Assembly (NCBI RefSeq): GCF_900110415.1
Contig: NZ_FODR01000002.1
Location: forward strand, 620,001-684,000
Direction: 5' to 3'
Source: Mucilaginibacter sp. OK283
GTDB taxonomy: Bacteria; Bacteroidota; Bacteroidia; Sphingobacteriales; Sphingobacteriaceae
DNA length: 64,000 bases
Under the pieces are notes generated by a model. The model saw only the letters and a list, made by a program, of their open reading frames with translations. It had not been told where the DNA came from and searched no databases. Position numbers and translations under genes: made by a program. This document shows positions 3,766-55,730 of the stretch, piece after piece; position 1 is the first letter of the stretch, and the number at the start of each line of letters is the position of its first letter.

Positions 3766-3872
3766 AGAGTTGAAAAGTTGTAAAGTTTTCACAAGTTGTA
3801 AAGTTAGATGCCGAACTTTCAACCATCAAACCAAAACAATACAACGTTGAAACTTTCTACTATTACAACAAA
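3766..3872. repeat. Iterated-word palindrome between rplP and rpmC
   Basis: The gap holds the word AGTTGTAAAGTT in near-tandem copies at about 3773-3806, followed by partly complementary words such as AACTTTCAAC and ACAACGTTGAAACTTTC at about 3813-3860. The arms can pair as an imperfect hairpin within the operon transcript. It belongs to the structural class seen in many gaps of this window. Confidence 0.6.
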
Positions 3873-3884
3873 TAACACAAGAAG

Positions 3885-4094
3885 ATGAAGAACTCAGAAA
3901 TTTTGGGACTATCTACAGAAGAACTGGTAGCAAAAATCGGCGAGGAAAGGTCAACCCTTACCAAATTGAAATTTGCTCACGCAGTATCGGCTATCGAGAA
4001 TCCATCCCGTATAACAAAGGTACGCAAGGGAATTGCTCAGTTAAATACTGAATTAACAAAACGCAAAGCGGCGTCGGCTTCTGAAAAGAATTAA
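3885..4094 (+). CDS. rpmC: 50S ribosomal protein L29
   Basis: The 69-residue product has the all-helical L29 pattern: MKNSEILGLSTEELVAKI at the start, then the KLKFAHAVSAIENPSRI and VRKGIAQLNTEL segments. L29 binds near the tunnel exit next to L23. The length is normal, with a short Lys/Ala/Ser tail. rpsQ follows after 20 bases. Confidence 0.96.
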   Translation: MKNSEILGLSTEELVAKIGEERSTLTKLKFAHAVSAIENPSRITKVRKGIAQLNTELTKRKAASASEKN

Positions 4095-4114
4095 TTTTTT
4101 AAGCATTCAGAAAA

Positions 4115-4369
4115 ATGGAAAGAAATTTAAGAAAAACACGTACCGGCCTGGTGGTTAGCAATAAGATGGAAAAATCTATTGTAGTGGCTGTTGAGCGTAA
4201 AGTGAAACACCCTATCTACGGTAAATTCGTGAAAAAAACCACAAAATTTATGGCTCATGATGAGACCAACACTTGTGGCATTGGCGATACCGTATTGATT
4301 ATGGAAACCCGCCCGCTGAGCAAGAGCAAAAACTGGAGATTAGTTCAAATTTTAGAAAGGGCTAAATAA
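4115..4369 (+). CDS. rpsQ: 30S ribosomal protein S17
   Basis: The 84-residue OB-fold protein carries the S17 motifs [19 protein letters not shown] and [20 protein letters not shown]17 is a primary 16S rRNA-binding protein needed early in 30S assembly. The position between rpmC and rplN is canonical and only one base separates its stop from the rplN start. Confidence 0.98.
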
Positions 4370-4370
4370 G

Positions 4371-4739
4371 ATGGTACAACAGGAATCAAGATTAAACGTA
4401 GCCGATAACAGTGGCGCTAAAGAAGTTTTAGTGATCCGCGTGTTAGGTGGTACCGGCAAAAGGTATGCATCTATAGGCGATAAGATAGTAGTAACCGTAA
4501 AAAGCGCTTTACCTTCAGGTAACGTAAAAAAAGGTACTGTATCAAAAGCCGTAGTAGTACGCACCAAAAAAGAGATCCGCAGAAAAGATGGTTCATACAT
4601 CCGTTTCGACGATAACGCAGCTGTTTTGTTAAATAACCAGGATGAGCCAAGAGGCACACGTATCTTTGGCCCTGTTGCAAGAGAACTGCGTGAGAAACAA
4701 TTTATGAAAATTGTATCATTAGCACCGGAGGTATTGTAA
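4371..4739 (+). CDS. rplN: 50S ribosomal protein L14
   Basis: The 122-residue product is a standard L14, starting [19 protein letters not shown] and ending with the conserved [19 protein letters not shown] segment. L14 forms part of an intersubunit bridge and is the binding site of the silencing factor RsfS. The length is exactly typical. rplX follows after two bases. Confidence 0.98.
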
Positions 4740-4741
4740 TC

Positions 4742-5086
4742 ATGGAAAAGAAAAAAGTTGCAACACCAGGCAAACTGAAAATTCGCAAAGGCGACCTGGT
4801 AAAAGTTATAGCCGGCGATTCAAAAGGATCGCAAGGTAAAGTAGTTGAGGTGATAATAGCAAAAAACAGGGCTGTTGTTGAAGGTGCCAATATGGTATCA
4901 AAACATACCAAACCTAATGCTGCTAACCCTAACGGCGGAATTGTTAAACAAGAAGCTGCTATACATATTTCAAACCTAATGCTGGTTGACCCTAAATCAG
5001 GTAATACAACCCGTGTTGGCCGTAAATTGAACGATGCCGGCAAATTAGTAAGGGTAGCAAAAAAATCAGGGGAGGAAATTAAGTAA
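4742..5086 (+). CDS. rplX: 50S ribosomal protein L24
   Basis: The 114-residue product contains the KOW motif [20 protein letters not shown] near residues 13-32 and the [19 protein letters not shown] segment. L24 is one of the two initiator proteins of 50S assembly. The length agrees with bacterial L24 proteins. Its stop overlaps the rplE start by one base (TAATG), which points to coupled translation. Confidence 0.98.
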
Positions 5087-5649
5087 TGACTTACGTACCA
5101 AGATTAAAAACAAAATACAAAGACGAAATTCGTACCGCACTGAAAGATAAATTTCAGTACAAAAGCGTAATGCAGGTTCCTAAACTGGAAAAAATTGCCA
5201 TTAACCAGGGTGTTGGCGGTGCTACTACCGATAAAAAACTGATCGAGAACACCATCACCGAGTTAACAACCATCACTGGCCAGCAGGCAGTATCTTCAAA
5301 ATCTAAAAAAGATATCTCGAACTTTAAATTGCGTAAAAATATGCCGGTTGGCGTACGTGTTACCTTGCGTGACAACACAATGTATGAGTTTTTAGATCGT
5401 TTAATCGCTGTTGCCCTGCCACGTATCCGTGACTTTAAAGGCATCAACGACAAAGGTTTTGACGGCAGAGGTAACTATACTTTAGGTATTACAGAGCAAA
5501 TTATATTCCCTGAGATAAATATTGACAAAATCAATAAAATCCAAGGTATGGATATTACCTTTGTAACCTCCGCAACAAACGATGTTGAAGCATTGGAGTT
5601 GTTGAAACAATTTGGATTACCATTTAAAAATCAAAATAGCAATGGCTAA
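5086..5649 (+). CDS. rplE: 50S ribosomal protein L5
   Basis: The 187-residue product has L5 motifs: [16 protein letters not shown], the [19 protein letters not shown] region and [19 protein letters not shown]5 binds 5S rRNA and contacts P-site tRNA. Its last eight bases overlap the start of rpsN in another frame, an overlap conserved in many spc operons. Confidence 0.98.
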
Positions 5650-5911
5650 AGAAGGTGTAAAAGCTCGTGAAGTAAAGCGCGCTAAATTGGTTGCTAAATA
5701 CGCAGAGAAAAGAGCAGCCCTTAAAGAAGCCGGCGATTACGTTGGTTTAGATAAATTACCTAAGGCATCATCTCCGGTAAAATTACACAACCGTTGTAAA
5801 TTAACCGGCCGCCCACGTGGTTATATGCGTCAGTTTGGTATTTCACGGGTAACATTCCGTGAAATGGCTCTTGATGGCAAAATCCCGGGAGTAAAGAAAG
5901 CAAGCTGGTAA
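5642..5911 (+). CDS. rpsN: 30S ribosomal protein S14, zinc-free form
   Basis: The 89-residue product begins [13 protein letters not shown] and ends with the S14 core [19 protein letters not shown]. The frame is open further upstream to 5612, but that would extend deep into rplE and lacks family similarity, so the ATG at 5642 is preferred. The CxxC pairs of the zinc-binding S14 form are absent (only one Cys), so this is the long C-minus type. S14 acts in late assembly of the 30S head. Confidence 0.97.
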
Positions 5912-5915
5912 TTTC

Positions 5916-6038
5916 AGTATCAAGTATATAGTATCAAGTAGCAAGACATACCTTGCGAACGGTATTGAAGAGTAGAGGTAGTTAGCATCAGAAAACAAGA
6001 CAAAATCTTGATACTTGATACTAACTACTTGATACTAT
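5916..6038. repeat. Iterated TATCAAGTA palindrome between rpsN and rpsH
   Basis: The left arm (about 5916-5945) repeats AGTATCAAGTA. The right arm (about 6006-6037) carries the complement TACTTGATACT, also repeated. A spacer of about 60 nt separates them. The right arm shares a run of about 25 nt with the right arm of the element next to sdhA near 26,150. The element lies inside the ribosomal operon transcript and starts four bases after the rpsN stop. Confidence 0.75.
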
Positions 6039-6109
6039 AAAAAAGAATTAACCGATGGAAGGTCGCCCCGGATGTTACGGGAAGGAAACCACCATCATAA
6101 CCCAATAAA

Positions 6110-6508: not shown

Positions 6509-6524
6509 TAGGAGAAATTAAGCA

Positions 6525-7082: not shown

Positions 7083-7087
7083 TCGTC

Positions 7088-7438
7088 ATGGGAGCTAAAT
7101 TATCAAGAAGAGACAGGATTAAAAAAGGTATCAGAAAACGCCTTTCAGGATCAACAGAGCGTCCTCGCCTGTCAGTATACAGGAGCAATAAAGGTATTTA
7201 CGCGCAGATCATTGACGATTTAACCGGTAAAACTATCGTATCAGCATCATCTTTGTCAAAAGATTTTACCGCTGATGGCACAAAATCTGATCAATCAGTA
7301 GCCGTAGGCAAACTGGTAGCTCAGAAAGCTATCGCAGCAGGTATTAAAGATGTGGTTTTCGACAGGAACGGTTATTTGTACCATGGTCGTGTTAAGTCAC
7401 TGGCCGAAGGTGCACGTGAAGGTGGTTTAAACTTTTAA
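7088..7438 (+). CDS. rplR: 50S ribosomal protein L18
   Basis: The 116-residue product shows the L18 pattern: a basic N-terminus ([18 protein letters not shown]), [20 protein letters not shown] and the C-terminal [20 protein letters not shown]18 carries 5S rRNA into the central protuberance together with L5. The length is normal and the gene sits in its standard place between rplF and rpsE. Confidence 0.98.
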
Positions 7439-7450
7439 TCGAACAGAGAA

Positions 7451-7969: not shown

Positions 7970-7975
7970 TCAGTC

Positions 7976-8155: not shown

Positions 8156-8159
8156 TATC

Positions 8160-11158: not shown

Positions 11159-11171
11159 GAACAATTAATTT

Positions 11172-11245
11172 TGAATTAGTGAATTAGTGAGTTATTGAAT
11201 TAAAAATCATCTCGCACAATCACTAAATCACTAAATCACTAAATA
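11172..11245. repeat. Iterated GAATTAGTGA / TCACTAAAT palindrome
   Basis: GAATTAGT is repeated at 11172-11200 and TCACTAAA is repeated three times at about 11220-11244, so the two halves are partly complementary across a short spacer. The element fills the rpmJ-rpsM gap and ends just before the rpsM start. Confidence 0.7.
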
Positions 11246-11251
11246 AAGAAT

Positions 11252-13908: not shown

Positions 13909-13918
13909 GTCGTTAAAT

Positions 13919-14030
13919 CTTGAGTTCTGAGTGTTGAGTTTATCTCTGTCACTCGGGACTCAAGTCATTTATAGGGTAGTTGGTTTTTTAGGGTTTTAAA
14001 CTCACTACTCATCACTTAAAACTCAATACT
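13919..14030. repeat. Iterated GAGTTCTGAGT / ACTCAACTC palindrome
   Basis: The left part (13919-13941) reads TTGAGTTCTGAGTGTTGAGT. The right part (about 13998-14030) carries complementary words AAACTCACTACTCATCACTT and AAAACTCAATACT. A middle block CGGGACTCAAGTC lies between. It fills most of the rpoA-rplQ gap and begins shortly after the rpoA stop. Confidence 0.65.
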
Positions 14031-14104
14031 ATTAAATAGCGAAGGCATAATTCCGAAGGCTTGAGTAAATCGCCGGACGGTATGCACGTGAAATAATTAA
14101 AACA

Positions 14105-17888: not shown

Positions 17889-17916
17889 TATTAAATTTCG
17901 TTAAATACATACAAGG

Positions 17917-17948
17917 GCCCGGTTGAAGAAATTCAGCCGGGCTTTTTT
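17917..17948 (+). terminator. Terminator of dnaK
   Basis: GCCCGGTTGA - loop - TCAGCCGGGC forms a GC-rich stem followed by TTTTTT, about 30 nt after the dnaK stop. A strong intrinsic terminator. Confidence 0.88.
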
Positions 17949-18011
17949 GGGCGATAATTTTTGCCCTTTCATAGCATGACGAGAGGTGCATCATTTAATC
18001 CTGTATCCTCC

Positions 18012-18100
18012 TGTCATTCTGAGGTACGAAGAATCTATTTTACGCCATGCACGGCCGATAGGAAAGTTCGCGAATAGATTCTTCGTACCTCAGAATGACA
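18012..18100. repeat. 28-nt perfect inverted repeat (GTCATTCTGAGG type)
   Basis: TGTCATTCTGAGGTACGAAG continues to position 18039, and its exact reverse complement lies at 18073-18100, with a 33-nt spacer. The arm resembles the GTCATTCTGAG...GAATCTATT repeats that are common between genes in Bacteroidota genomes. It lies between dnaK and the next gene. No transposase is nearby. Confidence 0.85.
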
Positions 18101-18149
18101 AGAGTATTTTTCTTATTTTTACTCCATAACAAAAGGCAAATAAATTTCA

Positions 18150-19169
18150 ATGTCAACAAAACCAATTGTAGCGGGCCTGATGGCCTACGGTATGTCGGGC
18201 CGTATTTTTCACGCCCCATTTTTATCAGCCAATCCTGGCTTTACTTTTAAAGCTATTGTGGAACGCCATGAAAAAAAGGCCGGCAAAGTATACCCGGATG
18301 TAATTAGCTATAACACTATAGACGAATTGCTGAATGACACTGAAATTGAATTGATTGTTGTTAATACGCCAAATGATACTCATTTTGACTATGCCATGCG
18401 GGCGCTTAATGCCGGTAAACATGTGCTGATAGAAAAACCTGCCGCAGTTACTTCTGCCGAAGTAAAGGCATTATTTGATTTGGGCAGGCAACTTGATTTG
18501 AAAGTAATGATTTACCAAAACCGCCGGTACGATAGTGGTTTCATTTCGGTAAAAAAAGTTATTGAAAGCGGCCGGCTTGGCGAACTGATAGAAGTGAATT
18601 TCAGGCTCGACAGGTATCGTATGGCTATCGGGGCAAAGCAGTTTAAGGAAACTAAAGAAACGCCGGGTAACGGCTTAACGTACGATTTGGGCGCGCACCT
18701 GGTTGACAACGCCATCAGTATTTTTGGCCGGCCGTTAAGTTATGTGAAAACTACAGCCACACATCGTCCCGGGTCGCAGGTTGATGATTATTTTCACATT
18801 CATTTAAGTTATCCCAACCAATTAAACGTGTATTTAACGTCGGGCTTGTTGATTGCCGAGCATCTGCCGGGCTTTGTTGTACATGGCACATTGGGCAGTT
18901 TTGTAAAGTTGCGTACAGATGTGCAAGAGGCACAATTAGATGCCGGAATGATGCCGGATGCAGCAGGTTTTGGAGTTGAGCCTGAAGGAAGCGAGGGTAA
19001 ATTGGTACTGATGGGGCCTGACAATGAGAAAACTGTAGAGTGGGTTCCGTCAGATAAGGGTAATTATAATGGTTTATTTGATGCCGTGTATCATACTGTG
19101 CGTGAAAATGCGTTATTCCCGATAACTGAGGAACAAATAGCCTGGCAGATGGAATTGCTGGAGAGCTAA
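18150..19169 (+). CDS. Gfo/Idh/MocA family NAD(P)-dependent oxidoreductase
   Basis: The 339-residue product has an N-terminal Rossmann fold with GLMAYGMSGRIFHAPFL and the family signature LIEKPAAVTSAEVKAL near residues 94-107. The second domain includes YDLGAHLVDNAISIFG, which carries the catalytic-type His. Members oxidise or reduce sugars and inositols, but the substrate is not evident. It is followed after 42 nt by a thioredoxin-like lipoprotein and the two may share a transcript. Confidence 0.9.
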   Translation: MSTKPIVAGLMAYGMSGRIFHAPFLSANPGFTFKAIVERHEKKAGKVYPDVISYNTIDELLNDTEIELIVVNTPNDTHFDYAMRALNAGKHVLIEKPAAVTSAEVKALFDLGRQLDLKVMIYQNRRYDSGFISVKKVIESGRLGELIEVNFRLDRYRMAIGAKQFKETKETPGNGLTYDLGAHLVDNAISIFGRPLSYVKTTATHRPGSQVDDYFHIHLSYPNQLNVYLTSGLLIAEHLPGFVVHGTLGSFVKLRTDVQEAQLDAGMMPDAAGFGVEPEGSEGKLVLMGPDNEKTVEWVPSDKGNYNGLFDAVYHTVRENALFPITEEQIAWQMELLES

Positions 19170-19211: not shown

Positions 19212-19700
19212 ATGAAAAGAATATGTTTGTTGCTTTGCCTTATTGCAGCCGCGGGCTGCAGCCAGGCCCAAACCATGCCCGTAAATAGCAAAATTGCCCC
19301 ATATCATATATTAACCACCGACAGTGTTTATGTTACGCCTGCCGACCTGAAAAAGAACAAGCCGGTGATGGTGATTTACTTCTCGCCGGACTGCAGTCAC
19401 TGCCAGCACTTGATGTATGATTTAAAACCCGAATTGGATAAGCTTAAAGGGGTGCAGATTGTAATGATAACCTTTGTGAACCAGCTAAAGGCCATACAGG
19501 TATTTCAGCGCGATTTTGATTTGGCTAAATATCACAATATCATTATAGGTACCGAAGGGTATACTTACGTAGTGCAGCGTTATTACCACGTACAAACCAC
19601 GCCATACATTGCCATTTATGATAAAAACGGTAAACTTGCCCAGGCTTATGACAAAGTGCCAAAAATTCCGGTGCTGATGGATGCAATTAAGAAAGTGTAA
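19212..19700 (+). CDS. Thioredoxin-like lipoprotein
   Basis: The 162-residue product starts MKRICLLLCLIAAAGCSQAQ, a lipoprotein signal with Cys16 in the lipobox AAGC. A longer start at 19191 adds seven residues ahead of the signal and is less likely. FSPDCSHCQH gives a CSHC redox motif at residues 61-64, and PYIAIYDKNGKL matches the cis-Pro region of a thioredoxin fold. It is probably a periplasmic disulphide or peroxide-linked redox protein. The stop codon is the first part of a 42-nt repeat arm. Confidence 0.85.
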   Translation: MKRICLLLCLIAAAGCSQAQTMPVNSKIAPYHILTTDSVYVTPADLKKNKPVMVIYFSPDCSHCQHLMYDLKPELDKLKGVQIVMITFVNQLKAIQVFQRDFDLAKYHNIIIGTEGYTYVVQRYYHVQTTPYIAIYDKNGKLAQAYDKVPKIPVLMDAIKKV

Positions 19701-19739
19701 TTTTAATTTGAGAATTTGAAGATTTGAGAATTTGAAAAT
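19698..19739. repeat. 42-nt repeat arm, left copy (AATTTGAGAATTTGAAGATT)
   Basis: TAATTTTAATTTGAGAATTT and the bases up to 19739 are exactly the reverse complement of 20918-20959. The arm itself is an iterated AATTTGA(G/A) word. It starts with the stop codon of the thioredoxin-like gene; the mate starts with the stop codon of the alpha-E gene. Weak complementary words also occur at 19765-19782, so a local hairpin is possible too. Confidence 0.85.
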
Positions 19740-19831
19740 GGTTTATTAATTCAACTTTTAAAAAATCTAATCTTCAAACTATTTTACGCTTGTAACAGCG
19801 TGTCCAAAATTGATATTAAGAAAATTGAAAA

Positions 19832-20840: not shown

Positions 20841-20959
20841 AATTTGAAAATTTGAGAATTTGAAGATTTGAAAATGACTTTGATGTAAATCATCATTTGT
20901 AATCTTTTAAACAAGCAATTTTCAAATTCTCAAATCTTCAAATTCTCAAATTAAAATTA
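20841..20959. repeat. AATTTGA-word palindrome and right copy of the 42-nt arm
   Basis: The left arm at 20841-20875 repeats AATTTGA(A/G) words, and the right arm at 20918-20952 repeats the complement TTCAAATTCTCAAATC. With the flanking TTA stop of the alpha-E gene the right arm (20918-20959) is the exact inverse of 19698-19739. The element fills the gap between the alpha-E and transglutaminase genes. Confidence 0.88.
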
Positions 20960-21892: not shown

Positions 21893-21903
21893 ATTAGCCC
21901 TTT

Positions 21904-22000
21904 AAGCCCCCTAACCCCCTAAAGGGGGAATGATAAGGGGATATTTATTAAAAATTTAACTATACTATTTTCACTCCCCCTTTAGGGGGGCGGGGGGCTT
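21904..22000. repeat. CCCCCTAAAGGGGG palindrome next to the ATP-grasp stop
   Basis: The left arm AGCCCCCTAACCCCCTAAAG and the right arm (21974-22000, CTCCCCCTTTAGGGGGGCGG) are complementary, and each half is itself palindromic. The right end abuts the stop codon of the ATP-grasp gene. A related element sits at 43,279-43,392. It could act as a bidirectional transcription barrier. Confidence 0.8.
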
Positions 22001-23447
22001 ACGCCAGCACCCACGTATCTTTACTGCCGCCGCCCTGCGAGCTGTTAACCACCAATGAGCCTTCTTTTAAGGCCACACGGGTTAGGCCGCCGGGTACAAT
22101 CTCAATGCCATCGGGGCCGTACAATGCGTAGGGCCTTAAGTCAATACGGCGGGGTTTTAATGAGCCCTGCATGTAACATGGCGCTGCCGAAAGGCTGATG
22201 GTAGGCTGCGCTATAAAATTACGGGGATCTTTCAGAATTTCTTTTTTATATTCCTCAATTTCCTCTTCAGATGCCGCGTGCCCCATCAGCATGCCATAAC
22301 CGCCGCTGCCGTTGGTTTTTTTAACTACCATTTTATTCAGGTTTTTAAACACATGCTCACGCTCGTCGGGGTTGCCCAGCTGGTGGGTGGGCACGTTTTT
22401 AAGTATCGGTTCTTCGTTCAGGTAATACCTTATCATGTCCGGTACGTATACATACACCGCTTTGTCGTCGGCCACTCCGGTACCAATAGCGTTTACAATA
22501 GCTACGTTGCCTTTGCGGTAAGCTCCCATAATACCCGCTACACCCAGCATACTCGCGGGGTTAAAGACCAGCGGATCAAGGTATTCATCATCCACCCGGC
22601 GATAAATTACATCTACCTGCTGTAGCCCTGTTGTGGTTTTCATATAAACCTTATGGTTATTTACCACCAGGTCGCGTCCCTCCACAAGTTCAACGCCCAT
22701 CAGGCGGGCCAATGTAGTGTGTTCAAAATAAGCTGAGTTATAAATTCCCGGGCTTAACAGCACGATAGTAGGATTGGAAATTTGCCTTGGCGATAATGCC
22801 AGCAGGTTTTTATACAGTATCGTTGGGTACTCTGTAACACTCCTTACACCGCACTGAGGCAGCAAATCGGGGAATAAGCGTTTGGTTATTTCGCGGTTTT
22901 CCAGCATATAGCTCACGCCCGATGGGGTGCGCAAATTATCTTCCAGTACATAAAAAGTACCGTCCTCATCGCGGATCAGGTCGATGCCCGAAATATGTAC
23001 ATAGATATCGTAAGGTACCTTCAATTGGTACATCTCGCGCAAAAAGTGCGGGCACGAATAAATGATATCAATAGGCACAATACCATCCTTTACAATAAAC
23101 TGGTTATTGTATATATCTTTCAGAAAATGGTTTAGCGCGGTAAGGCGTTGCTTAATACCTTTTTCTACAAAAGCCCATTCGCTTGCGGTAATAATGCGCG
23201 GGATAATGTCAAAGGGGAAAATCTTTTCAATGCCCTCGCCGCTGTTATACACCGTAAAGGTGATACCCTGGCTCATAAAAAGACGTTTGGCCAGTTCCTC
23301 TTTTTTGTTCAGATCGTCGGCCGATTCCTGCGAAATATATTCTATTACCTTACGATAATGTTCACGAACATTGCTGTCCAGGCCATACATTTCGTCCCAA
23401 ACACCACTTATTGGGTTATATTTATCAAAATAAGCTGATTCCTGCAT
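21999..23447 (-). CDS. Circularly permuted ATP-grasp protein
   Basis: The 482-residue product has the pattern of the circularly permuted ATP-grasp family. It contains FLREMYQLKVPYDIYVHIS, GIDLIRDEDGTFYVLEDNLR, TPSGVSYMLENR and a Lys/Gly loop VVKKTNGSGGYGMLMG, and ends DLRPYALYGPDGIEIVPGGL before a C-terminal GGGSKDTWVLA. It is predicted to form amide bonds using ATP. It heads the operon with alpha-E and transglutaminase partners. No clear promoter was identified upstream. Confidence 0.9.
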   Translation of the reverse strand: MQESAYFDKYNPISGVWDEMYGLDSNVREHYRKVIEYISQESADDLNKKEELAKRLFMSQGITFTVYNSGEGIEKIFPFDIIPRIITASEWAFVEKGIKQRLTALNHFLKDIYNNQFIVKDGIVPIDIIYSCPHFLREMYQLKVPYDIYVHISGIDLIRDEDGTFYVLEDNLRTPSGVSYMLENREITKRLFPDLLPQCGVRSVTEYPTILYKNLLALSPRQISNPTIVLLSPGIYNSAYFEHTTLARLMGVELVEGRDLVVNNHKVYMKTTTGLQQVDVIYRRVDDEYLDPLVFNPASMLGVAGIMGAYRKGNVAIVNAIGTGVADDKAVYVYVPDMIRYYLNEEPILKNVPTHQLGNPDEREHVFKNLNKMVVKKTNGSGGYGMLMGHAASEEEIEEYKKEILKDPRNFIAQPTISLSAAPCYMQGSLKPRRIDLRPYALYGPDGIEIVPGGLTRVALKEGSLVVNSSQGGGSKDTWVLA

Positions 23448-26067: not shown

Positions 26068-26081
26068 CTCTTTAAGATTTT

Positions 26082-26178
26082 GTATCAAGTAGTAAGTATC
26101 AAGTATCAAGTAGGTTGGCGGTATCAGTTATCAAGATTTTTTTCTGTCTTGATACTTGATACTAACTACTTGCTACTA
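26082..26178. repeat. Iterated TATCAAGTA palindrome between sdhB and sdhA
   Basis: The left arm (26082-26112) repeats GTATCAAGTA, and the right arm (about 26148-26178) carries CTTGATACTTGATACTAACT and onward to the stop of sdhA. The right arm is nearly identical over about 25 nt to the element at 5916-6038. The stop codon of sdhA lies inside its last word. Confidence 0.85.
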
Positions 26179-28110
26179 AGCGTAATTTCGTTGCGATAAA
26201 TGAACTGCTTCAAATACCAGTTGTTCTTTGTGTAATTCCTCCGGTTGGTTTTCGCCTTTAAATTCCCAGGCTGCTACAAACGCGAAGTTTTCATCGTCGC
26301 GCAATGCCTCACCATCTGCTGTTTGCGATTCAACCCTGAAGTGGCCACCACATGATTCATTGCGCATCAATGCATCATCAACCATTAGTTCGCCAAGTTC
26401 GATGAAGTCGGCTATACGGCCGGCCCTTTCTAATGACGCGTTTACTTCCTCATTTTCGCCGGTTACAATGGCGTTTTTCCAGAAATCCGCTTTCAGCGCC
26501 TGAATCAAACCTTTGGCTTTTGTTAAACCTTCTGCCGTACGGGCCATGCCGCAATATTCCCACATAATGTGGCCAAGCTCGCGGTGATACTCGTTTACAG
26601 TTTTATTGCCTTTTAAAGCCAATAACTTATTGATATAGGTGATCACATCCTTTTTTGTAGCTTCAAAAGCAGGGTGCGATGTATCAACCTTTTTAGGGCC
26701 AATTTTAGCCAGGTAATCGCCAAGGGTATAAGGGATCACAAAATAACCATCGGATAAACCCTGCATCAAAGCAGAAGCACCCAAACGGTTAGCCCCGTGA
26801 TCGCTGAAGTTACATTCGCCCAAAGCATATAGGCCAGGTACGGTTGTGCTCAGGTTATAATCAACCCAAAGGCCGCCCATAGTATAGTGTACCGCCGGGT
26901 AAATACGCATAGGTTGTTTGTATGGGTTTTCATCCGTTATCTGGATGTACATATCAAACAGGTTGCCATATTTTGCCCTCACGGTGTCTTCGCCTAAACG
27001 TTTGATGGCATCGGCAAAATCAAGGAATACCGCAAAACCCGAACCACCTACGCCCTTGCCTTCTGCAACCATTTCTTTGGCGTTACGTGAGGCCACATCG
27101 CGTGGCACAAGGTTACCAAAGGCTGGGTATTTACGTTCCAGGAAGTAATCGCGGTCGTCCTCTTTTACCTGGTCGGCTTTGATGGTTCCTTTGCGTAATT
27201 GCTCGGCAATCTCAACAGTTTTTGGCGCCCAAACACGACCATCGTTACGTAACGATTCAGACATCAGCGTAAGTTTCGACTGGTGATCGCCGGTTACCGG
27301 GATACAGGTTGGGTGAATTTGGGTATAACAAGGGTTTCCGAAGAATGCGCCGCGTTTGTGGGCCCTCCAAGCAGCCGTTACGTTTGAGCCGATTGCGTTG
27401 GTTGACAGATAGAAAACGTTGCTGTATCCACCTGTACACAACAATACTGCGTGACCGGCGTGAGTATCAATAGAACCGGTTATCATGTTACGGGTAACAA
27501 TACCTTTGGCATGGCCATCAATAGTAACCACATCAAGCATTTCGGTACGGGTGTACATTTTTACCTTACCGGCATGTATCTGGCGGTTTAATGCCGAGTA
27601 TGCGCCTAAAAGCAATTGCTGCCCGGTTTGGCCACGTGCATAAAAAGTACGTGATACCTGCGAACCACCGAATGAACGGTTATCCAGCAAGCCACCGTAC
27701 TCGCGGGCAAAAGGAACACCCTGTGCAACGCACTGGTCAATGATATTTACCGATACTTCGGCAAGGCGGTACACGTTGCCTTCGCGGGCGCGGTAATCGC
27801 CACCTTTTATAGTGTCATAAAACAAACGGAACACACTGTCGCCGTCGTTCTGATAGTTTTTTGCAGCATTAATACCACCTTGTGCTGCAATAGAGTGCGC
27901 ACGGCGTGGGCTATCCTGGAAACAAAAAGCTTTTACGTTATAACCAAGCTCGGCCAATGAGGCTGCTGCTGATGCGCCTGCCAAACCAGTTCCTACAACG
28001 ATGATATCGTATTTACGCTTGTTGGCCGGATTAACCAGCTTCAGGTCAAATTTATGCTTGCTCCATTTTTGGGCTAATGGGCCTTCTGGAATTTTAGCAT
28101 CTAAACTCAT
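26176..28110 (-). CDS. sdhA: Succinate dehydrogenase/fumarate reductase flavoprotein subunit
   Basis: The 644-residue product has an FAD-binding dinucleotide fold near residue 35 ([20 protein letters not shown]). The [20 protein letters not shown] segment carries the covalent-flavin type His. Catalytic regions include [20 protein letters not shown] and [16 protein letters not shown] late segment is [20 protein letters not shown]. It oxidises succinate to fumarate, or the reverse, at the inner membrane. The gene lies between sdhC and sdhB, with repeat palindromes on both sides. Confidence 0.97.
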
Positions 28111-28129
28111 TTCTTTTATATTTTATATT

Positions 28130-28262
28130 AGTGAGTGGTTGGTTTGGTGAGTTGTGAGTGGAGAGTAGTGAGTTTGAAAGGGTGTTTTACTTCCCAACTT
28201 AATCACTTAACTTAATCAACCATTCAACTTAATCAACCTAATCAACTCATTTAACTTAATCA
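28130..28262. repeat. Iterated GTGAGT / ACTTAATCAAC palindrome between sdhA and sdhC
   Basis: The sdhA-proximal part repeats GAGTGGTTGG, GTGAGTTGTGAGT and GTAGTGAGT words. The sdhC-proximal part repeats ACTTAATCA and AATCAACC at least six times and contains the sdhC stop codon. Complementarity between the arms is partial (GGTTGGTTT-like against AACCAACC-like words). Confidence 0.65.
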
Positions 28263-29042
28263 ACCTTTAACTACAAAATAGTAATATACCGGCATAGCGG
28301 CAAAGCCCAGCGGGATAATTACTGCGAAGAACCAGGTGCCAATGGCATATACGATAGGTGTGTATTTACGGTGTACCCAGCCTAGTGTGCGGAAAGCACT
28401 CTGGAAACCATGCAACAGGTGGAATGACAGTGCACCCATGGCTATAACATAAAGAATAACATACCATAAGCTGCTAAAGCTTGTTACTACACGTGCATGT
28501 AAATCTTTTACCCTTACAATTTCTACGTTGTTTTCAACAGAAACTGAGTGGCTAAAATCTTCTGAAACCGGTGTGTAAACAGATTCGGTTGTTTTGCCCG
28601 TTGCCAGATCAGTGCGGTACTCCTTAAAAGCAACATCGTTGGTATATTTATACTTGAACCAAAAATCGCCCATGTGGATAACGATAAATAAAAACAGTAT
28701 CGACCCCAAAAGCCCCATGTTTTTTGAAGACCAGGTAGCATCAGATTTTGGCTGGATAGCATAGCCTACCGGACGTGATTTGCGGTTTTTAACCGTAATA
28801 ATTAATGCGTAAAGCGCATGTACCGCTATAGACAGGTATAAGATATACGCAATTACTTCAATTGGTGCAAAATGTGTAAGAAAGTTGGCATACACATTAA
28901 AACCAAAACCATTATCGTTGCTAAATAGCAGCAGGTTGCCCCCAAGGTGTACAATAATAAAAGTACACAAAAACAAGCCTGTTAAAGCCATGATCAGCTT
29001 TTTGCCCAGCGATGAGTTAAAGGTTTGTTTAATTTCGCTCAT
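28260..29042 (-). CDS. sdhC: Succinate dehydrogenase cytochrome b subunit (b558 family)
   Basis: The 260-residue product starts MSEIKQTFNSSLGKKLIMAL and has five membrane segments with haem-ligand His in LCTFIIVHLGGNLLLF, IVIHMGDFWFKY and SFHLLHGFQSAF. The single large subunit replaces separate SdhC and SdhD, as in Bacillus-type enzymes. An in-frame ATG at 29102 lies upstream of the promoter element at 29065-29072, so the ATG at 29042 is chosen. First gene of sdhCAB. Confidence 0.95.
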   Translation of the reverse strand: MSEIKQTFNSSLGKKLIMALTGLFLCTFIIVHLGGNLLLFSNDNGFGFNVYANFLTHFAPIEVIAYILYLSIAVHALYALIITVKNRKSRPVGYAIQPKSDATWSSKNMGLLGSILFLFIVIHMGDFWFKYKYTNDVAFKEYRTDLATGKTTESVYTPVSEDFSHSVSVENNVEIVRVKDLHARVVTSFSSLWYVILYVIAMGALSFHLLHGFQSAFRTLGWVHRKYTPIVYAIGTWFFAVIIPLGFAAMPVYYYFVVKG

Positions 29043-29980: not shown

Positions 29981-30132
29981 AGGTAGCCTCTACGAGGCAA
30001 AATAAAGATTAGATGGATACTTCTACAAATATGTGGCCTCTACGAGGCATATCAGCATATTTTTCTGCCTCGTAGAGGCTACATATTTGTAGAAATGGAA
30101 AGAAAAAAATCTTTGCCCCGTTAGGGGCTACC
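29981..30132. repeat. Nested GCCTCTACGAGGC palindrome
   Basis: The inner arms 30021-30050 and 30066-30094 (TTCTACAAATATGTGGCCTC versus its complement) pair with about one mismatch across a 15-nt loop. Outer arms at 29981-30010 (AGGTAGCCTCTACGAGGCAA) and 30107-30132 pair less perfectly. GCCTCTACGAGGC is itself palindromic and occurs twice in the left half. It lies in the 396-nt gap between pdeM and the next gene; nothing else was seen in that gap. Confidence 0.85.
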
Positions 30133-32014: not shown

Positions 32015-32114
32015 TTATTGAATTATTGAATTATTGAATTATTGAATTATTGAATTATTGAATTATTGAATTATTGAATTATTGAATTATTGAATTATTG
32101 AATTATTGAATTAT
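32013..32114. repeat. 8-bp tandem repeat (AATTATTG) x about 12.7
   Basis: AATTATTG is repeated without interruption for about 102 bp, starting within the stop codon of the enoyl-CoA hydratase. There are no spacers and no complementary arm, unlike the other word elements. Length variation by slippage is likely. Confidence 0.95.
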
Positions 32115-38225: not shown

Positions 38226-38338
38226 GAAGGCTTAAAGCTTAAAGCGGAAGGCCTAAAGCCTTGAAAGCCAAAACCTGTCAATAATAACACCAGGTGATTT
38301 AAAGCTTTTAGCCTTAAGCATCCGGCCCTAAGCTTTTA
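38226..38338. repeat. Iterated CTTAAAGC / GCCTTAAGC palindrome
   Basis: The left part (38226-38262) reads AAGGCTTAAAGCTTAAAGCG then GGCCTAAAGCCTTG. The right part (38298-38338) reads AAAGCTTTTAGCCTTAAGCA then CGGCCCTAAGCTTTT. The words are partly self-complementary. It fills the trmB to alkyltransferase-like gap. Confidence 0.7.
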
Positions 38339-38340
38339 AA

Positions 38341-44377: not shown

Positions 44378-44446
44378 ATTTATAAAAGGTATGGATTGAG
44401 TTGGATTGTATCGGAAGTAAAAATAGAATTTTAATCAGAATATTTT

Positions 44447-44548
44447 GTCTGAATCAGAATTTACAGGATTTAAGAATTTTCAGAATCTAAGCAGGATACA
44501 CTCCTATAATTCTGTTAATCGTATAATTCTGTGAATTCTGATTCAGAC
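44447..44548. repeat. GTCTGAATCAGAATT palindrome containing the folC stop
   Basis: The left arm (44447-44487) starts GTCTGAATCAGAATTTACAG; the right arm (44510-44548) is its near complement, ending TCTGATTCAGAC. The last bases, GATTCAGAC, contain the folC stop codon and its final Val codon. Similar TCAGAATTTACAGGATT repeats are widespread in Bacteroidota. Confidence 0.85.
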
Positions 44549-45850
44549 AACCTTCGCCACCACAAAAGTACTGCCACCAACAAAAACCAGGTCGTTATCC
44601 CCAGCTGCGTTTTGAGCTGCTTGTAATGCCTGTTTAACCGATGTATATGCCAATCCCTGCAAACCAATGCTTTCAGCCTTCAGCCTTAAGCTCTCGGCCT
44701 CCAAACCCCTTGGGATATCGGGTTTGCAAAAATAGTAGGTAGCATCCTTGGGGAGCATGCTTAAAACTTTGGTAATATCCTTATCGTTCACCATACCAAT
44801 TACAAAATGGAGGTGTTTGTAATTGACGGATGCAATGTTTTGTAAAACCTCCTGTATACCGTCAGGATTGTGGCCGGTATCGCAAATGGTCAGGGGTTTT
44901 TCTGTTAATGTTTCCCAGCGGCCGTGTAAACCGGTGAGGGTTTTTACCTGCGATAAGGCTGTACTGATATCATCGTCGCTAATATTGAAACCCTGAATAC
45001 GCAGTTCGTCAATAGCGGTTAACACCGTTTTTACATTTTTGAGCTGATATGAGCCGGTAAGATCAAGCCGGATGGCGAGTTGTGAGTTGTGAGTTGTGAG
45101 TTGTGAGTTTTTTGTGGCGGTTAAATCAAGTTGGTTTTCTTTTTGAATTTTGAATTTTGAATTTTGAATTTCCCACGTATCTGATGCAAATGAAAGGTTG
45201 GCATGTTCTTTTGTCGCTTTGTCAACAAATACGTGAGCTGTTTCCGGCTGGTTTTCGCCAATAATAACCGGGACGCCAGGTTTTATAATACCTGCTTTTT
45301 CGCCGGCTATGAGTTGTAAAGTATCGCCCAGGATATTCATGTGGTCCCAGCCGATGTTGGTGATAATAGAAAGTAGCGGATTGATGATATTGGTAGAATC
45401 CAATCGGCCCCCTAACCCAACTTCAATGATGGCTATATCTAATTTCTCTTTTGCAAAAACATCAAAAGCAAGGCCAACAGTCATTTCAAAGAATGACGGA
45501 CGGATCTCATCAAAATCTTTACGATGATCTTCAACAAAATCAATAACCGTTTGCTCACTGATCATTTGCCCGTTTATGCGGATGCGTTCGCGAAAATCTT
45601 TTAGGTGGGGGGATGTGTACAACCCGGTTTTGTAACCAGCCGTTTGCAATACTGCCGCCAGCATGTGCGACGTAGAACCTTTGCCATTGGTGCCGCCAAC
45701 ATGCACGCTTTTAAATTTATGCTGGGGATTATCAAGGCGTTTGCAAAGCTCGACGGTATTATCGAGGTTAGCTTTATAAGCAGAAGCCCCATCGCGCGTA
45801 AACATGGGGAGTTGGGTATATAGGTATTGGATGGTTTCGTTGTAGTCCAT
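44543..45850 (-). CDS. folC: Bifunctional folylpolyglutamate/dihydrofolate synthase, with in-frame repeat words
   Basis: The 435-residue product has the Mur-ligase-like folC motifs SVHVGGTNGKGSTSHML (P-loop), TSPHLKDFRERIRI and IEVGLGGRLDSTN. It then shows VIIGENQPETAH and LTICDTGHNPDGIQE. It adds Glu to folates. The start is set at the ATG in MDYNETIQYLYTQLP; a longer start at 45871 reads MDYGPWT, which is repeat sequence. Residues about 226-257 are encoded by two 7-mer tandem words (EIQNSKFKIQ and NSQLTTHNSQL) in a variable loop. Confidence 0.93.
   Translation of the reverse strand: MDYNETIQYLYTQLPMFTRDGASAYKANLDNTVELCKRLDNPQHKFKSVHVGGTNGKGSTSHMLAAVLQTAGYKTGLYTSPHLKDFRERIRINGQMISEQTVIDFVEDHRKDFDEIRPSFFEMTVGLAFDVFAKEKLDIAIIEVGLGGRLDSTNIINPLLSIITNIGWDHMNILGDTLQLIAGEKAGIIKPGVPVIIGENQPETAHVFVDKATKEHANLSFASDTWEIQNSKFKIQKENQLDLTATKNSQLTTHNSQLAIRLDLTGSYQLKNVKTVLTAIDELRIQGFNISDDDISTALSQVKTLTGLHGRWETLTEKPLTICDTGHNPDGIQEVLQNIASVNYKHLHFVIGMVNDKDITKVLSMLPKDATYYFCKPDIPRGLEAESLRLKAESIGLQGLAYTSVKQALQAAQNAAGDNDLVFVGGSTFVVAKVV
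45077..45171. repeat. Two iterated 7-mer words inside folC
   Basis: GAGTTGT is repeated about four and a half times at 45077-45109 and TTTTGAA about four times at 45141-45171, separated by about 31 nt. Both are multiples compatible with the reading frame. They resemble the words of the intergenic elements but are not complementary to each other. Confidence 0.85.
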
Positions 45851-45943
45851 GGTCCATGGTCCATAGTCCATAGCTATGGTGAATTTGGATGAAAATTTAT
45901 GAAATAAACTTTTGCCATGGTCTATTGTCCATTGACCATGAAC
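45838..45943. repeat. Iterated GGTCCATGGTCCAT palindrome at the folC start
   Basis: GTCCATGGTCCATGGTCCAT at 45845-45864 and related GTCCATAG words run into the first codons of folC. The right part (45915-45943) carries CCATGGTCTATTGTCCATTG then ACCATGAAC. The word contains CCATGG and is self-complementary. It fills the tonB-folC gap. Confidence 0.75.
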
Positions 45944-45950
45944 TAAAAGA

Positions 45951-46769: not shown

Positions 46770-46775
46770 TTTATT

Positions 46776-46908
46776 CAGTTGGCAGTTGCCGGTTTGCAGT
46801 TGCATGTTTGCAGTTATCAGTTGCTCTTTATTTCAAAGTTAAGCAAAAGCAAAACCTTTACGCAAATTGATAACTGCCGAGTGCCCACTGTAAACTGCAA
46901 ACTGCCTA
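46776..46908. repeat. Iterated GCAGTT / AACTGC palindrome between exbD and tonB
   Basis: Left words TTGGCAGTTGCC, GTTTGCAGTTGC and TTTGCAGTTATCAGTTG run from 46776 to about 46824. The right part (46863-46906) has AATTGATAACTGCCG and ACTGTAAACTGCAAACTGCC, ending in the exbD stop codon. The arms are complementary over several blocks. Confidence 0.82.
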
Positions 46909-54000: not shown

Positions 54001-54206
54001 TCGAACTTGGGCTGGTTGGTAGTTTTTAGCCGGGCAGTTTCTAATAGCCGGAATTGCTCGGCCGCAGATGCATATTTTCCTTTACTCATCAGGTCGATGG
54101 CGGTATGGTAAGTGCGGTAAACCTGGGTAGATGGATTTTGCTGTGCCAGAGCGGTTGAAGCTATAAAAACAGGAATTAGCAGGGGGATGTATCTTTTTTT
54201 GATCAT
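51087..54206 (-). CDS. Large periplasmic tetratricopeptide-repeat protein
   Basis: The 1039-residue product has a signal peptide (MIKKRYIPLLIPVFIASTAL then AQQ). An upstream ATG at 54215 adds three residues. It is packed with TPR units, for example YFQIGKSYFKQGNYEKSIEW, GDSYFVLKSYGKALDYYNRI and ARAL-type helices. The C-terminus is Lys/Ala/Pro-rich (DTTKTPAQN). Such proteins act as scaffolds for outer-membrane complexes. It is the first gene of the envelope cluster; the outer-membrane barrel gene follows after 36 nt. Confidence 0.9.
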   Translation of the reverse strand: MIKKRYIPLLIPVFIASTALAQQNPSTQVYRTYHTAIDLMSKGKYASAAEQFRLLETARLKTTNQPKFESDLSLVKENSQYYEAFCALNLNNDDAESMFLRFIKEHPENPLTKLAYFQIGKSYFKQGNYEKSIEWFDKVQAGELNGHDNTEYKFRKGYAYFSLGNFKEAQLLFAEVKAKKTEFTEDATYYFAYIAYLNKDYHLALVNFERLKKSKKYENSYPYYISAVYFLDKRYDDVINYAVPIVNNTHQQNETEMLRIIAASYFAKGNFDNAVKYYGRFQDRDQGRTQNTQDSYQIGYTFYKVGNYAQAASELEKLVEQKDVYSQNGNYTLGDVFLKMNNKQSARNAFLNASKLNYDKQLQEDALYEYAKLSYELDFNTEALAATRLYLKNYPRSRRNDEMKVLLGEELLNSRNYKEAVDILEPIPNKSESAQIAYQKVTYYRGLEFYNERAFENAIGIFLRSLKNPIDPKTAALTTYWMAEAMYEVRKYAESVETFERFLDMPEAKETEVANYANYAVGYAAFYGEQYKKAANYFEKFLAGDVKDESTQNDAVTRIGDSYFVLKSYGKALDYYNRIIARHSQGEDYALFQRGMIQGLQGSLDTKISTLNDVLNKFPNSDYADDASFEIAYTYFLKTNGDKAKTDLQAMIQKYPRSSYIPRALVTIGLIDYNAGNDDVAVESFKKVIQDYSSTDEAKQALKQIEKIYTDKGDAQTFISYAATTPIGNYTAADQESIMITAANNLYLKNDWQGALGAVNAYFDKFPGKQIYEKQARFIRAQSLTNLNRTQEAVVDYNLILNDWTSAYSEKSLIAMAKLYISQQKYNEAVVFLKRLETNSEYKADYTFAINNLLLCYAEMKMPDDALNYVKLVRENDKTAQEDKFRTGLYAGKAYLQRGDTTTAIKELNYTITNTKTVAAAEAKYNVAQVEYLKGRYKTSQKMCFDLAKEMPNYDYWVAKTYILLADNYRALKDNFQAKATLQSIIDNYKADDDILPTAKQKLDVLNGGKSSKNAAPVVPDTGDNKAAPADTTKTPAQN

Positions 54207-54424
54207 AAAGCGCATACTAACGATGATGCTAAATTAGCGAAACGAAAATGGCTAATTAACATAAGTAGTTAACAAATGTGGAAAACACGTTTATAAAACG
54301 AAGGTAATATTAAAGATGATATGTGTGTGGAAAACTTTAAAATTGTTGACTGTTCTATAGCCAGGGCGGGGAACGCAAAATAACCAATTAGTATAAGCTG
54401 CCGCAATTTTTTTAAACTTTAAGC

Positions 54425-55564
54425 GTGTTTGATAATATGTTTGTTTGCGTGTGTTGCCCGATTTTCGTGTCGGCCGGGATATACCGTTTTGCCGGTAAAA
54501 GACTTAAGCTGTTAATCATTTTGTTTTTTCCGTTGTTTTGTAATGCACAAAAAATAAACGGGCCAATTGTTTTAACCGCCCCGCAATTTTTATTGCCGGC
54601 CAACGAATTTTACATTGCCGGGGTTGTGGATGACCGGGACGACCGCGGTGCTGTAGCCTGGCTTTTACCTGCTGCGCAGCTAACCCCAGCCACACCAAAA
54701 TACAGGGTTGATCTGGTAGGGGGCACGCTACCGGCAGTTAAAGAATATATGGGCAAAAGCCTGCCGCCCGATAAAATATTAAGGCCGGTTATTATCCATA
54801 TCAAAAAACTAATGGTAGATGAAACTTTGCAGCCGGGAGGTAAAGTTGAAGGCAAATTGAGTATTGTTTTATCATTTTGGTTAAAAAAGGATGATGATGA
54901 CCTGCGGCTGATTGATTACCGCGGGGGGACAAACTATACCAGGGGCACAGGGCAGCAAATGGATGTGGGCGGGCTGTTAGGTAATTCGTTACGGGTGGGG
55001 CTGTTGTATTTTAATAGCTGGATAGATAAACAAGCTGGGGGCAATATTAAGCTGGCCAAAGGTGTAAAATTAATTTTTAGTGATTATGCCGAACAACCCG
55101 AAGGCGACACTATTTACTATTCGGCCAAGCGGCGTTTAAGTTGGGACGATTTTCAGCAAAGGCCCCTTGCCAGTAAATATGAAGCTGAAGTTTTTCCGAG
55201 CATAGCTTATGGAGAGCATGTGGAGGTTGTTAAGGGAATTATTAACGTGCACATAAGCCTAAAACCATATTTGCCCAAAAGCGCTTGCTGGGTAAAGGAT
55301 GGAGGCCGTACTCCTTATAATTTAAATCACGAGCAAAGGCACTTTGATATTGTAAAGTTGGTGATGGAGCATTTTAAGCAGCATTTGCTCAAAGAAAAAC
55401 TTACGGTTGACAATTATGATGGCCCGATTAACGTGGATTACCTCGATTCGTTCAGGGAAATGAACGACCTGCAAAAACAGTATGATGACGAAACAAACCA
55501 CGGGCTTAATGTTAGCGTGCAGGAGGAGTGGAATAAGAAGATTGATAAAGAACTTAAGCCTTAG
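54425..55564 (+). CDS. Secreted DUF922-like putative zinc peptidase
   Basis: The product is up to 379 residues if it starts at the GTG at 54425. The signal-like segment LKLLIILFFPLFCNAQ begins only near residue 27, so the true start may be later. The first half is beta-rich and unassigned. The C-terminal part has SWDDFQQRPLASKYEAEVFP and LNHEQRHFDIVKLVMEHFK, a HExxH-FD zincin motif like that of the DUF922 family. It is predicted to be periplasmic. The activity is not known. Confidence 0.78.
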   Translation: MFDNMFVCVCCPIFVSAGIYRFAGKRLKLLIILFFPLFCNAQKINGPIVLTAPQFLLPANEFYIAGVVDDRDDRGAVAWLLPAAQLTPATPKYRVDLVGGTLPAVKEYMGKSLPPDKILRPVIIHIKKLMVDETLQPGGKVEGKLSIVLSFWLKKDDDDLRLIDYRGGTNYTRGTGQQMDVGGLLGNSLRVGLLYFNSWIDKQAGGNIKLAKGVKLIFSDYAEQPEGDTIYYSAKRRLSWDDFQQRPLASKYEAEVFPSIAYGEHVEVVKGIINVHISLKPYLPKSACWVKDGGRTPYNLNHEQRHFDIVKLVMEHFKQHLLKEKLTVDNYDGPINVDYLDSFREMNDLQKQYDDETNHGLNVSVQEEWNKKIDKELKP

Positions 55565-55572
55565 ATGTGCAG

Positions 55573-55730
55573 ATGTGCAAATTTCAGATATGCAGATGTG
55601 GCCATTTTAAATTTCGAATTTGGAGATGCCTGTTTTGGCTGAGCGTGAGGGGCAAATTATCTATCGAATTATGAGTGTCACGAGCAACATGGCTTGCGAA
55701 GCGTCATCTGCATATCTGAAATTTGCACAT
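55573..55730. repeat. 26-nt perfect inverted repeat (ATGTGCAAATTTCAG) after the zincin gene
   Basis: ATGTGCAAATTTCAGATATG at 55573 onward to 55598 has its exact reverse complement at 55705-55730, with about 106 nt between. A partial extra copy AGATGTGC lies just before the left arm. It starts right after the zincin stop and ends about 30 nt before the GbsR promoter. Confidence 0.88.

Follow-up and report, generated by a model that had tools for sequence, protein, structure and literature searches.

What produces the intergenic palindromes of Mucilaginibacter sp. OK283 in which a word of 7-8 nt is iterated and then, beyond a spacer, answered by its reverse complement? We take up this question in positions 620,001 to 684,000 of contig NZ_FODR01000002.1 (genome 7.19 Mb), a stretch of 64,000 nucleotides that we call the window. 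An earlier note listed fifteen such sites in it under the count 'at least fourteen', and proposed that the palindrome of each gap arises locally, through slippage of a word and then templated inversion. We argue for a different answer. Most of these palindromes are, we are fairly confident, gene-less copies of mobile-type elements whose full form carries a gene of the family PF05635 between inverted arms of about five iterated words. The class is apparently large and undescribed in the Bacteroidota. That the elements move, and that the protein recognizes the word, is what we infer from the pattern set out below.

Iterated palindromes and the genes between word arms

The design is real and far beyond chance. 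Within 704 kb of the same chromosome we called long open reading frames (ORFs) and kept the 405 gaps of 30-700 nt. Each gap received a score for its best hairpin and one for iteration within the arm, with 10 dinucleotide shuffles per gap as the control. Hairpins scoring at least 14 occur in 97 gaps where 0.7 are expected, and those that also have tandem-iterated arms occur in 48 where 0.1 are expected. The vocabulary is limited, with about fifteen words by our own grouping recurring across the 704 kb, and the same words turn up again in other species. Polarity is fixed as well: a search for 16 words with any partner found 25 neighbouring pairs, in all of which the word precedes its complement. 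The left arm holds more G than C in 35 of the 48 palindromes, fewer in 8 and equal numbers in 5; among these last thirteen palindromes, several are GC-rich repeats of a different nature that the iteration test lets through.

A long element of the same genome, built on the AGTATCAAGT word, holds a decayed reading frame between its arms. The frame belongs to PF05635. All eight PF05635 matches of the source genome lie between inverted word arms (weakest score 12.5), and the words or word variants are all different: AGTATCAAGTAG, GTTCATGG, GTCCATAG, AAGTCGT, GGTCATTA, GATGTGCAGATTTC, AATTTGAA and TTAGTGAATTAG. The family is present in 60 of 61 genomes of the genus, with 357 matches in total. We examined 107 genus loci, namely the 8 of the source genome, 30 supplied as the best per genome, 40 taken from the score list, by and large from the top down, and 29 divergent ones from a search with the L222 protein. 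Terminal inverted repeats able to form a long stem, with arms scoring at least 12 and mostly 30-45 nt long, flank the gene at 105 of the 107, and the left arm is iterated at 98. For the first 78 loci, a score of 12 is also attained by 91 of 468 mismatched flanks, in part since loci with a common word have similar arms, and by 20 of 85 control ORFs of 100-160 aa. With the threshold raised to 16, arms still score at 63 of the 78 loci, whereas 33 of the 468 mismatched flanks and 4 of the 85 ORFs get that far. In a sample of the phylum the association is seen again: PF05635 was found in 157 of 198 genomes, and of the 30 best loci supplied 21 have arms scoring at least 12, compared with 27 of 150 mismatched flanks.

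Many of the palindromes without a gene carry the ends of the elements that have one. Both arms match PF05635 arms at 12 or more in 28 of the 48 word palindromes, and in 22 when the loci of the source genome alone are used, while none of 49 non-iterated hairpins and none of 144 shuffled arm pairs do so (two of each at 11 or more). In the 704 kb scanned there are more copies without the gene than with it. The best indication that the two forms are states of one thing comes from the region before purE, a gene whose identity we confirmed; 13 stretches were fetched and read by eye, and the frame upstream we take, from its look, to be purK. The source genome, G026 and G027 carry here a GTTCATGG-word element with its gene, read in the sequence, and G021, G022 and G056 carry one as judged by position and arms. 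In G049 the same word forms a palindrome with no gene, and G052 retains a remnant of the left arm. A TCATTGCG-type repeat or similar hairpin stands in G042, G057, G017, G029, G031 and G013, a degraded one in G010, and none in G036.

How, then, did the two arms come to match? Inside one element the arms score 20.3 against each other on average (23 pairs, which are the 25 found by word alone minus two that were the sole pair of their word), and arms of the same word from different elements score 19.4 (n=168), so that the value within elements is not significantly higher (one-sided p=0.15). An arm thus matches the arms of other elements as well as its own partner, which argues against templated inversion, and the missing excess also argues against strong selection on pairing inside the element. 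The scores fit ends that are recognized separately, each arm being a copy of the family end and not of its partner. Slippage, the other half of the earlier proposal, fares better. Between the source genome and G020, a one-contig genome of the same species, whole-word steps are seen at 46.8 kb of the window (21 nt) and, at 32.0 kb, in the TTATTGAA array. Two arrays, the one at 32.0 kb and another at position 503280 of the contig (L031), are direct and have no inverted arm. The latter, a direct GTGAGTT array, differs in length between these two genomes too. A local generator would account for such arrays and steps. It would not account for a limited vocabulary common to several species, for words tied to a protein family, or for orthologous gaps that are empty or hold different content, and we regard it as very improbable. 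The words come from dispersed element families tied to PF05635 clades and not from a process acting on each gap. The earlier conclusion, that the word differs from gap to gap and the palindromes are therefore not copies of one element, was only half right: most words recur as genome-wide families.

We also note that the AAGTC palindromes at contig positions 447544 and 592372 have in common, on one side, the additional flank GTGTCAACGAYAAATTGAC. The idea of a larger element joined to these palindromes was considered and dropped; the motif has two full copies and a partial third at 131162.

Word and protein

The word follows the protein. When the arms of 78 loci were clustered without use of the proteins, clusters of two or more took in 62 loci, and the nearest protein has the same word in 61 of them. 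Protein pairs share a word in 57 of 60 cases at 80% identity or more, in 163 of 249 at 60-80%, in 2 of 159 at 50-60%, and in 0 of 2535 below 50%. On a protein tree the 11 word labels need 10 changes, which is the minimum, against a shuffled mean of 42.5 with 0 of 200 shuffles as low; this tree is built from only 106 columns, contains some long branches, leaves 16 rows in no group, and counts as two L216 and L264, which are one locus in the source genome and G020. Clusters and tree agree that a word family is specific to a protein clade. Words that stay readable while the proteins diverge to 60-80% identity suggest a constraint on the arms.

Cognate pairs of word and protein would also be expected if the PF05635 proteins were regulators binding RNA or DNA and the palindromes were their operators, and the palindromes inside ribosomal-protein operons could be read in this way. 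Operators would not be expected to differ between two genomes of one species, nor would their word families be expected to replace each other at one gap, and some PF05635 genes carry stop codons, such as L216 of the source genome. We think the regulatory explanation unlikely.

What kind of protein is it? All seven of the source-genome proteins given, out of eight, are above the cut-off of TIGR02436 ('four helix bundle protein'), a family for which we know of no established role. The L217 protein matches the structures 2gsc and 2rld by sequence, and so does its confident model (predicted local distance difference test 94.6); each structure has five chains. By Foldseek it also resembles chains of Avd, the protein of diversity-generating retroelements (4dwl, 8ub7), with a template modeling (TM) score of about 0.8 and a probability of about 1, at weak E-values of 0.28-0.54. 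The Xanthomonas structure is described in the relevant part of PMC4990558 as a toroidal homopentamer, and a passage of PMC10053308 notes the resemblance of PF05635 to Avd.

About five is also the number of words per arm. Of the 232 arms measured at 116 loci, 98 from the genus and 18 from the phylum, those of 7-nt words hold a median of 5.1 words in 36 nt (n=169) and those of 8-nt words 5.0 in 40 nt (n=56). Arm lengths differ between the two (p=0.0005) and word numbers do not (p=0.89). The genus loci alone give 5.1 words (36 nt, n=146) against 4.75 (38 nt, n=45), with p=0.006 for length and p=0.59 for word number. The count is approximate, because the measure overruns the arm at some loci, and the upper quartiles are 6.3 and 8.2 words. 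One word per ring subunit is a hypothesis with numerical support and not a result.

We also considered a reverse transcriptase acting in trans. The source genome has no RVT_1 match, nor do 27 of the 61 genus genomes, and since the source genome lacks one such an enzyme seems unnecessary at present.

Orthologous gaps and the sites of the window

If the palindromes are copies of elements, what happens to them at one place over time? We compared orthologous gaps, whose gene names were checked and confirmed, in the source genome and 26 others (27 in all), matching both arms to PF05635-type arms at 11 or more with one shuffle per gap. A matching palindrome stands between rpsN and rpsH in 21 of the 27 genomes and between rpoA and rplQ in 19, with 5 word families at each gap, while the rpmJ-rpsM gap has one in 9 (one family) and the rplP-rpmC gap in 7 (3 families); no shuffled gap matches in any of the four. 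At rplP-rpmC, arms of the related word AAGTTGAAAGT match in 5 genomes, the source genome not among them. Other gaps of the same operon range from 0 of 27 (map-infA and rpsK-rpsD) through 7 of 27 (rpsM-rpsK) to 10 of 27 (rpsD-rpoA, where 1 of 27 shuffles matches). The rpoA-rplQ gap of G004 is nearly empty. At rpmJ-rpsM, 16 of the 27 genomes have instead a conserved GC-rich hairpin (ACAACGGTGGCCCGCCGTTCGG and variants), by eye and with two diverged copies included. The rpoA-rplQ gap (window 13909-14104 and its orthologues) often holds three segments of one word, one as left arm and two as right arms, proximal and distal, which could form alternative stems; by eye, the proximal right arm runs into a terminator-like T run in several species (G025, G031 and G058 among them). 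By eye again, in the 27 genomes, a leader before rplQ is conserved at window 14030-14104 (GCATAATTCC or GCGTAATTCC, then CGGTATGCACGTG), as is, with small changes, a stretch before rpsH at window 6045-6109 (AACCGAT..GGTC..GAAACCAC..ATCA). Neither has an Rfam match, and Rfam has none anywhere in the window.

Closer comparison is possible within the species. The aligned window blocks of the source genome and G020 are mostly 94-99% identical, with lower blocks at 92% and 85%. Word-class gaps (hairpin at least 13) fall below 80% identity in 12 of 34 cases and below 60% in 9, other hairpin gaps in 6 and 5 of 25, and the remaining gaps in 17 and 13 of 116 (p=0.018 and 0.063 when the word class is compared with all other gaps). 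The word gaps turn over faster, but the difference is small and the other gaps also change. Examples of a clear swap of words between fixed flanks are contig positions 509541, 567297 and 639701 (window 19701); at the last, G020 has a GATGTGCA-word palindrome in place of the AATTTGAG one. The suggestion that the architecture of a gap is kept while its word changes is borne out at rpsN-rpsH and rpoA-rplQ. A separate change between these genomes lies in the TCATTCTGAGGTACGAAGAATCT palindrome at window 17889-18150, where G020 has an insertion of about 1.5 kb in the right arm that looks like an insertion sequence with its own gene.

A stem that is kept while its words change is also what one would expect of functional RNA hairpins, selected at gene 3' ends for termination or mRNA stability, the words being incidental. 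The predicted RNA folds are stable, lying below the shuffle mean at 7 of the 7 sites given (z from -2.8 to -8.3), hairpins are rarer in divergent gaps (4 of 48, against 64 of 310; p=0.047), and some rpoA-rplQ versions end in the T run already mentioned. But this explanation accounts for neither the iteration, the fixed polarity, the common vocabulary nor the link to a protein, and it sits poorly with pairing that is not significantly better within an element than between elements. As a full account of the class it has, we believe, little chance of being right; an RNA hairpin function may exist as a secondary role.

Several observations weigh against the reading of the palindromes as gene-less copies of PF05635 elements. 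No movement was observed, and by eye the orthologous gaps show no target-site duplication and no exact insertion boundary; their content is often replaced from the stop codon to the next conserved stretch. The 107 loci examined lean to high-scoring matches, out of the 357 counted. At the 29 divergent loci mismatched flanks reach 12 in 65 of 145 comparisons, same-word loci sharing arms, and 9 of the 30 phylum loci have no scoring arms. Arms remain unmatched for 20 of the 48 word palindromes; several of the 20 are other repeat classes that pass the iteration test, but the words GGTTGATTAAG and CAGTTGG still have no gene partner (for CAGTTGG, 47 listed pattern matches were compared with PF05635 places from incomplete lists, and none came within 1 kb of one). 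Before purE, G020 has neither gene nor word, its upstream flank being a different one with half a TCATTGCG-type repeat. Linkage alone could yield the concordance of word and protein, and near-copies among the 78 rows help it. Finally, G036, G048, G021 and G058 have only 2, 0, 1 and 2 palindromes per 100 kb, of which one of the two in G036 and the single one in G021 have word-like arms, and G036, with no PF05635 match, still has one AGTATCAAGT palindrome. The number of PF05635 genes fails as a predictor of the number of palindromes: these four genomes have 0, 1, 15 and 10 such genes, and the source genome, with 8, has 6.8 palindromes per 100 kb (G020: 6.2).

The sites of the window are collected in the table below.

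Table. Iterated-word palindromes and other repeats of the window. Match scores compare the arms of a site with a library of PF05635 arms, with five shuffles as the control; z refers to the predicted RNA fold.
Feature	Span	Arms	Strand	Match to PF05635 arms	z	Context
AAGTTGTA iterated palindrome, weak	3767..3869	left 3767-3805, right 3845-3869	.	12.0, inside shuffle range; no PF05635 partner		between rplP and rpmC
AGTATCAAGTAG-word palindrome	5916..6036	5916-5946, 6006-6036	.	32.0/27.0	-7.0	between rpsN and rpsH
TTAGTGAA-word palindrome	11169..11247	11169-11202, 11218-11247	.	21.5/18.5, own-genome locus L223	-4.5	between rpmJ and rpsM
TTGAGTTCTGAGTG-word element	13919..14030	left 13919-13941, proximal right 13950-13964, distal right 13998-14030	.	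weak, 14.5/10.5, own-genome locus L219; weaker arm 13.0 over wider library		rpoA-rplQ
AATTTGAG-word palindrome, decayed right arm	19705..19785	19705-19740, 19763-19785	.	left 30.0; right 10.5, inside shuffle range		begins right after stop codon
AATTTGAAAATTTGAG-word palindrome	20841..20952	20841-20876, 20916-20952	.	39.0/29.0	-5.6	
AGTATCAAGTAG-word palindrome	26079..26179	26079-26110, 26148-26179	.	32.0/24.0	-8.3	
GTGAGTTGTGAG / GTTGATTAAG mixed-word palindrome	28128..28265	28128-28174, 28198-28265	.	no arm-library partner		
Direct TTATTGAA array	32015..32110	no matching inverted arm	+			length differs between source genome and G020
AAAGCTTAAAGC-word palindrome	38226..38340	38226-38260, 38302-38340	.	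18.0/16.0, L293; 1 of 5 shuffles reached 15.5, small margin on one arm	-2.8	
GTCCATGGTCCATAG-word palindrome	45840..45948	45840-45874, 45914-45948	.	20.0/13.0; 1 of 5 shuffles reached 14.0, small margin on one arm; both arms match own-genome locus L218 (16.5)	-4.3	
CAGTTGGCAGTTTGC-word palindrome	46775..46906	46775-46823, 46863-46906	.	no PF05635 partner found	-5.5	3 x 7 nt tandem duplication in left arm in G020
GATGTGCAGATTTCA-word palindrome	55563..55730	55563-55600, 55705-55730	.	25.5/21.0, L297; own-genome locus L221 carries same word (20.0)		
CCCCCTAAAGGGGG repeat, outside class	21903..22001		.	none (9.5)		
GC-rich REP-like palindromes (GCCTCTACGAGGC), outside class	29983..30094		.			strong hairpin, no iteration
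TCTGAATCAGAATTTACAGG / TCTGAATCAGAATT repeat palindrome, outside class	44445..44550		.	none (10.5)		

All fifteen sites of the earlier note were checked. Nine have arms matching PF05635 arms (5916, 11172, 13919, 19698, 20841, 26082, 38226, 45838, 55573), the match at 13919 being weak and that at 19698 confined to the left arm. Sites 3766, 28130 and 46776 have no firm PF05635 partner; their words may have a gene partner outside the sample, and a PF05635-like gene of G052 (L090) is flanked by GTGAGTTGTGAATGG arms similar to those of 28130, with a score of 12. No PF05635 gene was found in the window itself. Sites 21904, 29981 and 44447 turned out to be repeats of other kinds, and that several palindromes touch a stop codon was rightly seen. 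The automatic scan passes eight of the fifteen (5916, 11172, 20841, 21904, 26082, 44447, 45838, 55573). At 29981 there is a strong hairpin but no iteration. The scan does not list 3766, 13919, 19698, 28130, 38226 and 46776, six sites probably missed through imperfect arms or because the scan's gap cut them.

Site 29981 looks like one of the repetitive extragenic palindromes (REP) or bacterial interspersed mosaic elements (BIME) that are driven by Y1 transposases (REP-associated tyrosine transposases, RAYT), and by eye it is similar in kind to the palindromes beside the Y1/RAYT-type genes of the genome. There are four PF01797 matches, three of them over the cut-off (L002-L004). Could such transposases be the source of the whole class? 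By eye, the flanks of the three genes over the cut-off show other palindromes, mostly GC-rich, and we give this explanation almost no chance. As a source of the words Y1/RAYT was rejected: the flanks of L002-L005 hold no word-arm pair, with one stray left arm upstream of L004, again by eye.

Proposed mechanism and known systems

How might such elements work? The protein would assemble as a ring of five and bind one word per subunit on one arm; binding of the word at each arm would make the arms act as terminal inverted repeats. Loss of the gene would yield the gene-less forms, which could possibly be moved in trans since their ends are kept. A transcript through a copy is predicted to fold into a long stem, which RNase III may cut, as the relevant part of PMC4990558 reports in vitro for a Coxiella rRNA intervening sequence (IVS). 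Cutting of the stems would make insertion between genes nearly harmless, and selection would remove copies elsewhere, with which the scarcity in divergent gaps (4 of 48, p=0.047) is consistent.

Taken to its full extent, the proposal is of a phylum-wide class in which a five-subunit ring of the Avd fold reads a fivefold word at each end, a change of word together with protein founds a new family, and gene-less copies move in trans and replace one another at gene 3' ends, with no known transposase or reverse transcriptase. We put this forward tentatively, as a possibility with the odds somewhat against it. The founding of families by joint change would explain how one genome can hold more than ten words, and if the proposal is true word replacement keeps renewing a large share of the DNA between genes in these bacteria.

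The work offers a source for puzzling intergenic palindromes of repeated 7-8 nt words and a context for the 'four helix bundle protein' family. It suggests a principle of recognition in which the symmetry of a ring is matched by the iteration of a word, about five words whatever the word length. It also sorts the odd gaps into families whose insertions, losses and replacements can be followed from strain to strain, ribosomal-protein operons included.

Which known systems come closest? Searches of open-licence papers turned up no account of PF05635 elements that lie between genes and end in iterated words, nor of gene-less copies of them, which is not proof that none exists. The heptamer direct repeats of Beggiatoaceae, cyanobacteria and some Bacteroidetes (TAACTGA) are likewise intergenic, iterated and patchy, but they are direct arrays, and the passages of PMC4679880 on them describe one indirect pair in the genome treated there and propose no protein source. 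Avd has the same fold and, by the account in part of PMC10053308, works in a retroelement with a reverse transcriptase, whereas RVT_1 finds no match in the source genome; no search was made for template or variable repeats. Miniature inverted-repeat transposable elements are gene-less copies bearing the ends of a gene-bearing element (PMC4596501, in part), and ends held in common with a gene-bearing element of the same genome are what we find (the 22 of 48 given above), but here there is no known transposase, no target-site duplication was seen, and the ends are iterated.

Two further close systems are the IVS of 23S rRNA and the REP/BIME elements with their RAYT. The former has a PF05635 protein gene (the S23p/IVP frame) between terminal inverted repeats, can form a stem of about 30 bp, is a few hundred nt long, and has been described as selfish, according to the part of PMC4990558 devoted to it. 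An IVS-type PF05635/TIGR02436 frame inside the element is found here in the full-length relatives only. The palindromes of the window differ in sitting between protein genes, including rpsN-rpsH and rpmJ-rpsM, with no Rfam match in the window, and in having arms of iterated words, with many word families per genome. REP and BIME are short dispersed intergenic palindromes, often near gene 3' ends, with paired inverted units, variable spacers and a tie to a protein family (PMC3733652, in the portion on these features), but here the protein is a helical bundle of the Avd fold and not a Y1 transposase, and the arms are word-iterated. The elements are IVS-like, but we set them apart from the IVS because the window sites do not share its location in an rRNA gene (helix 9, 25 or 45; the rRNA genes of this genome were not examined), and from REP/RAYT because they do not have its gene link. 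What was known already is the rRNA IVS with its PF05635 protein and the REP/RAYT pair; what we describe here is a gene-bearing element together with its gene-less copies, which is neither of the two.

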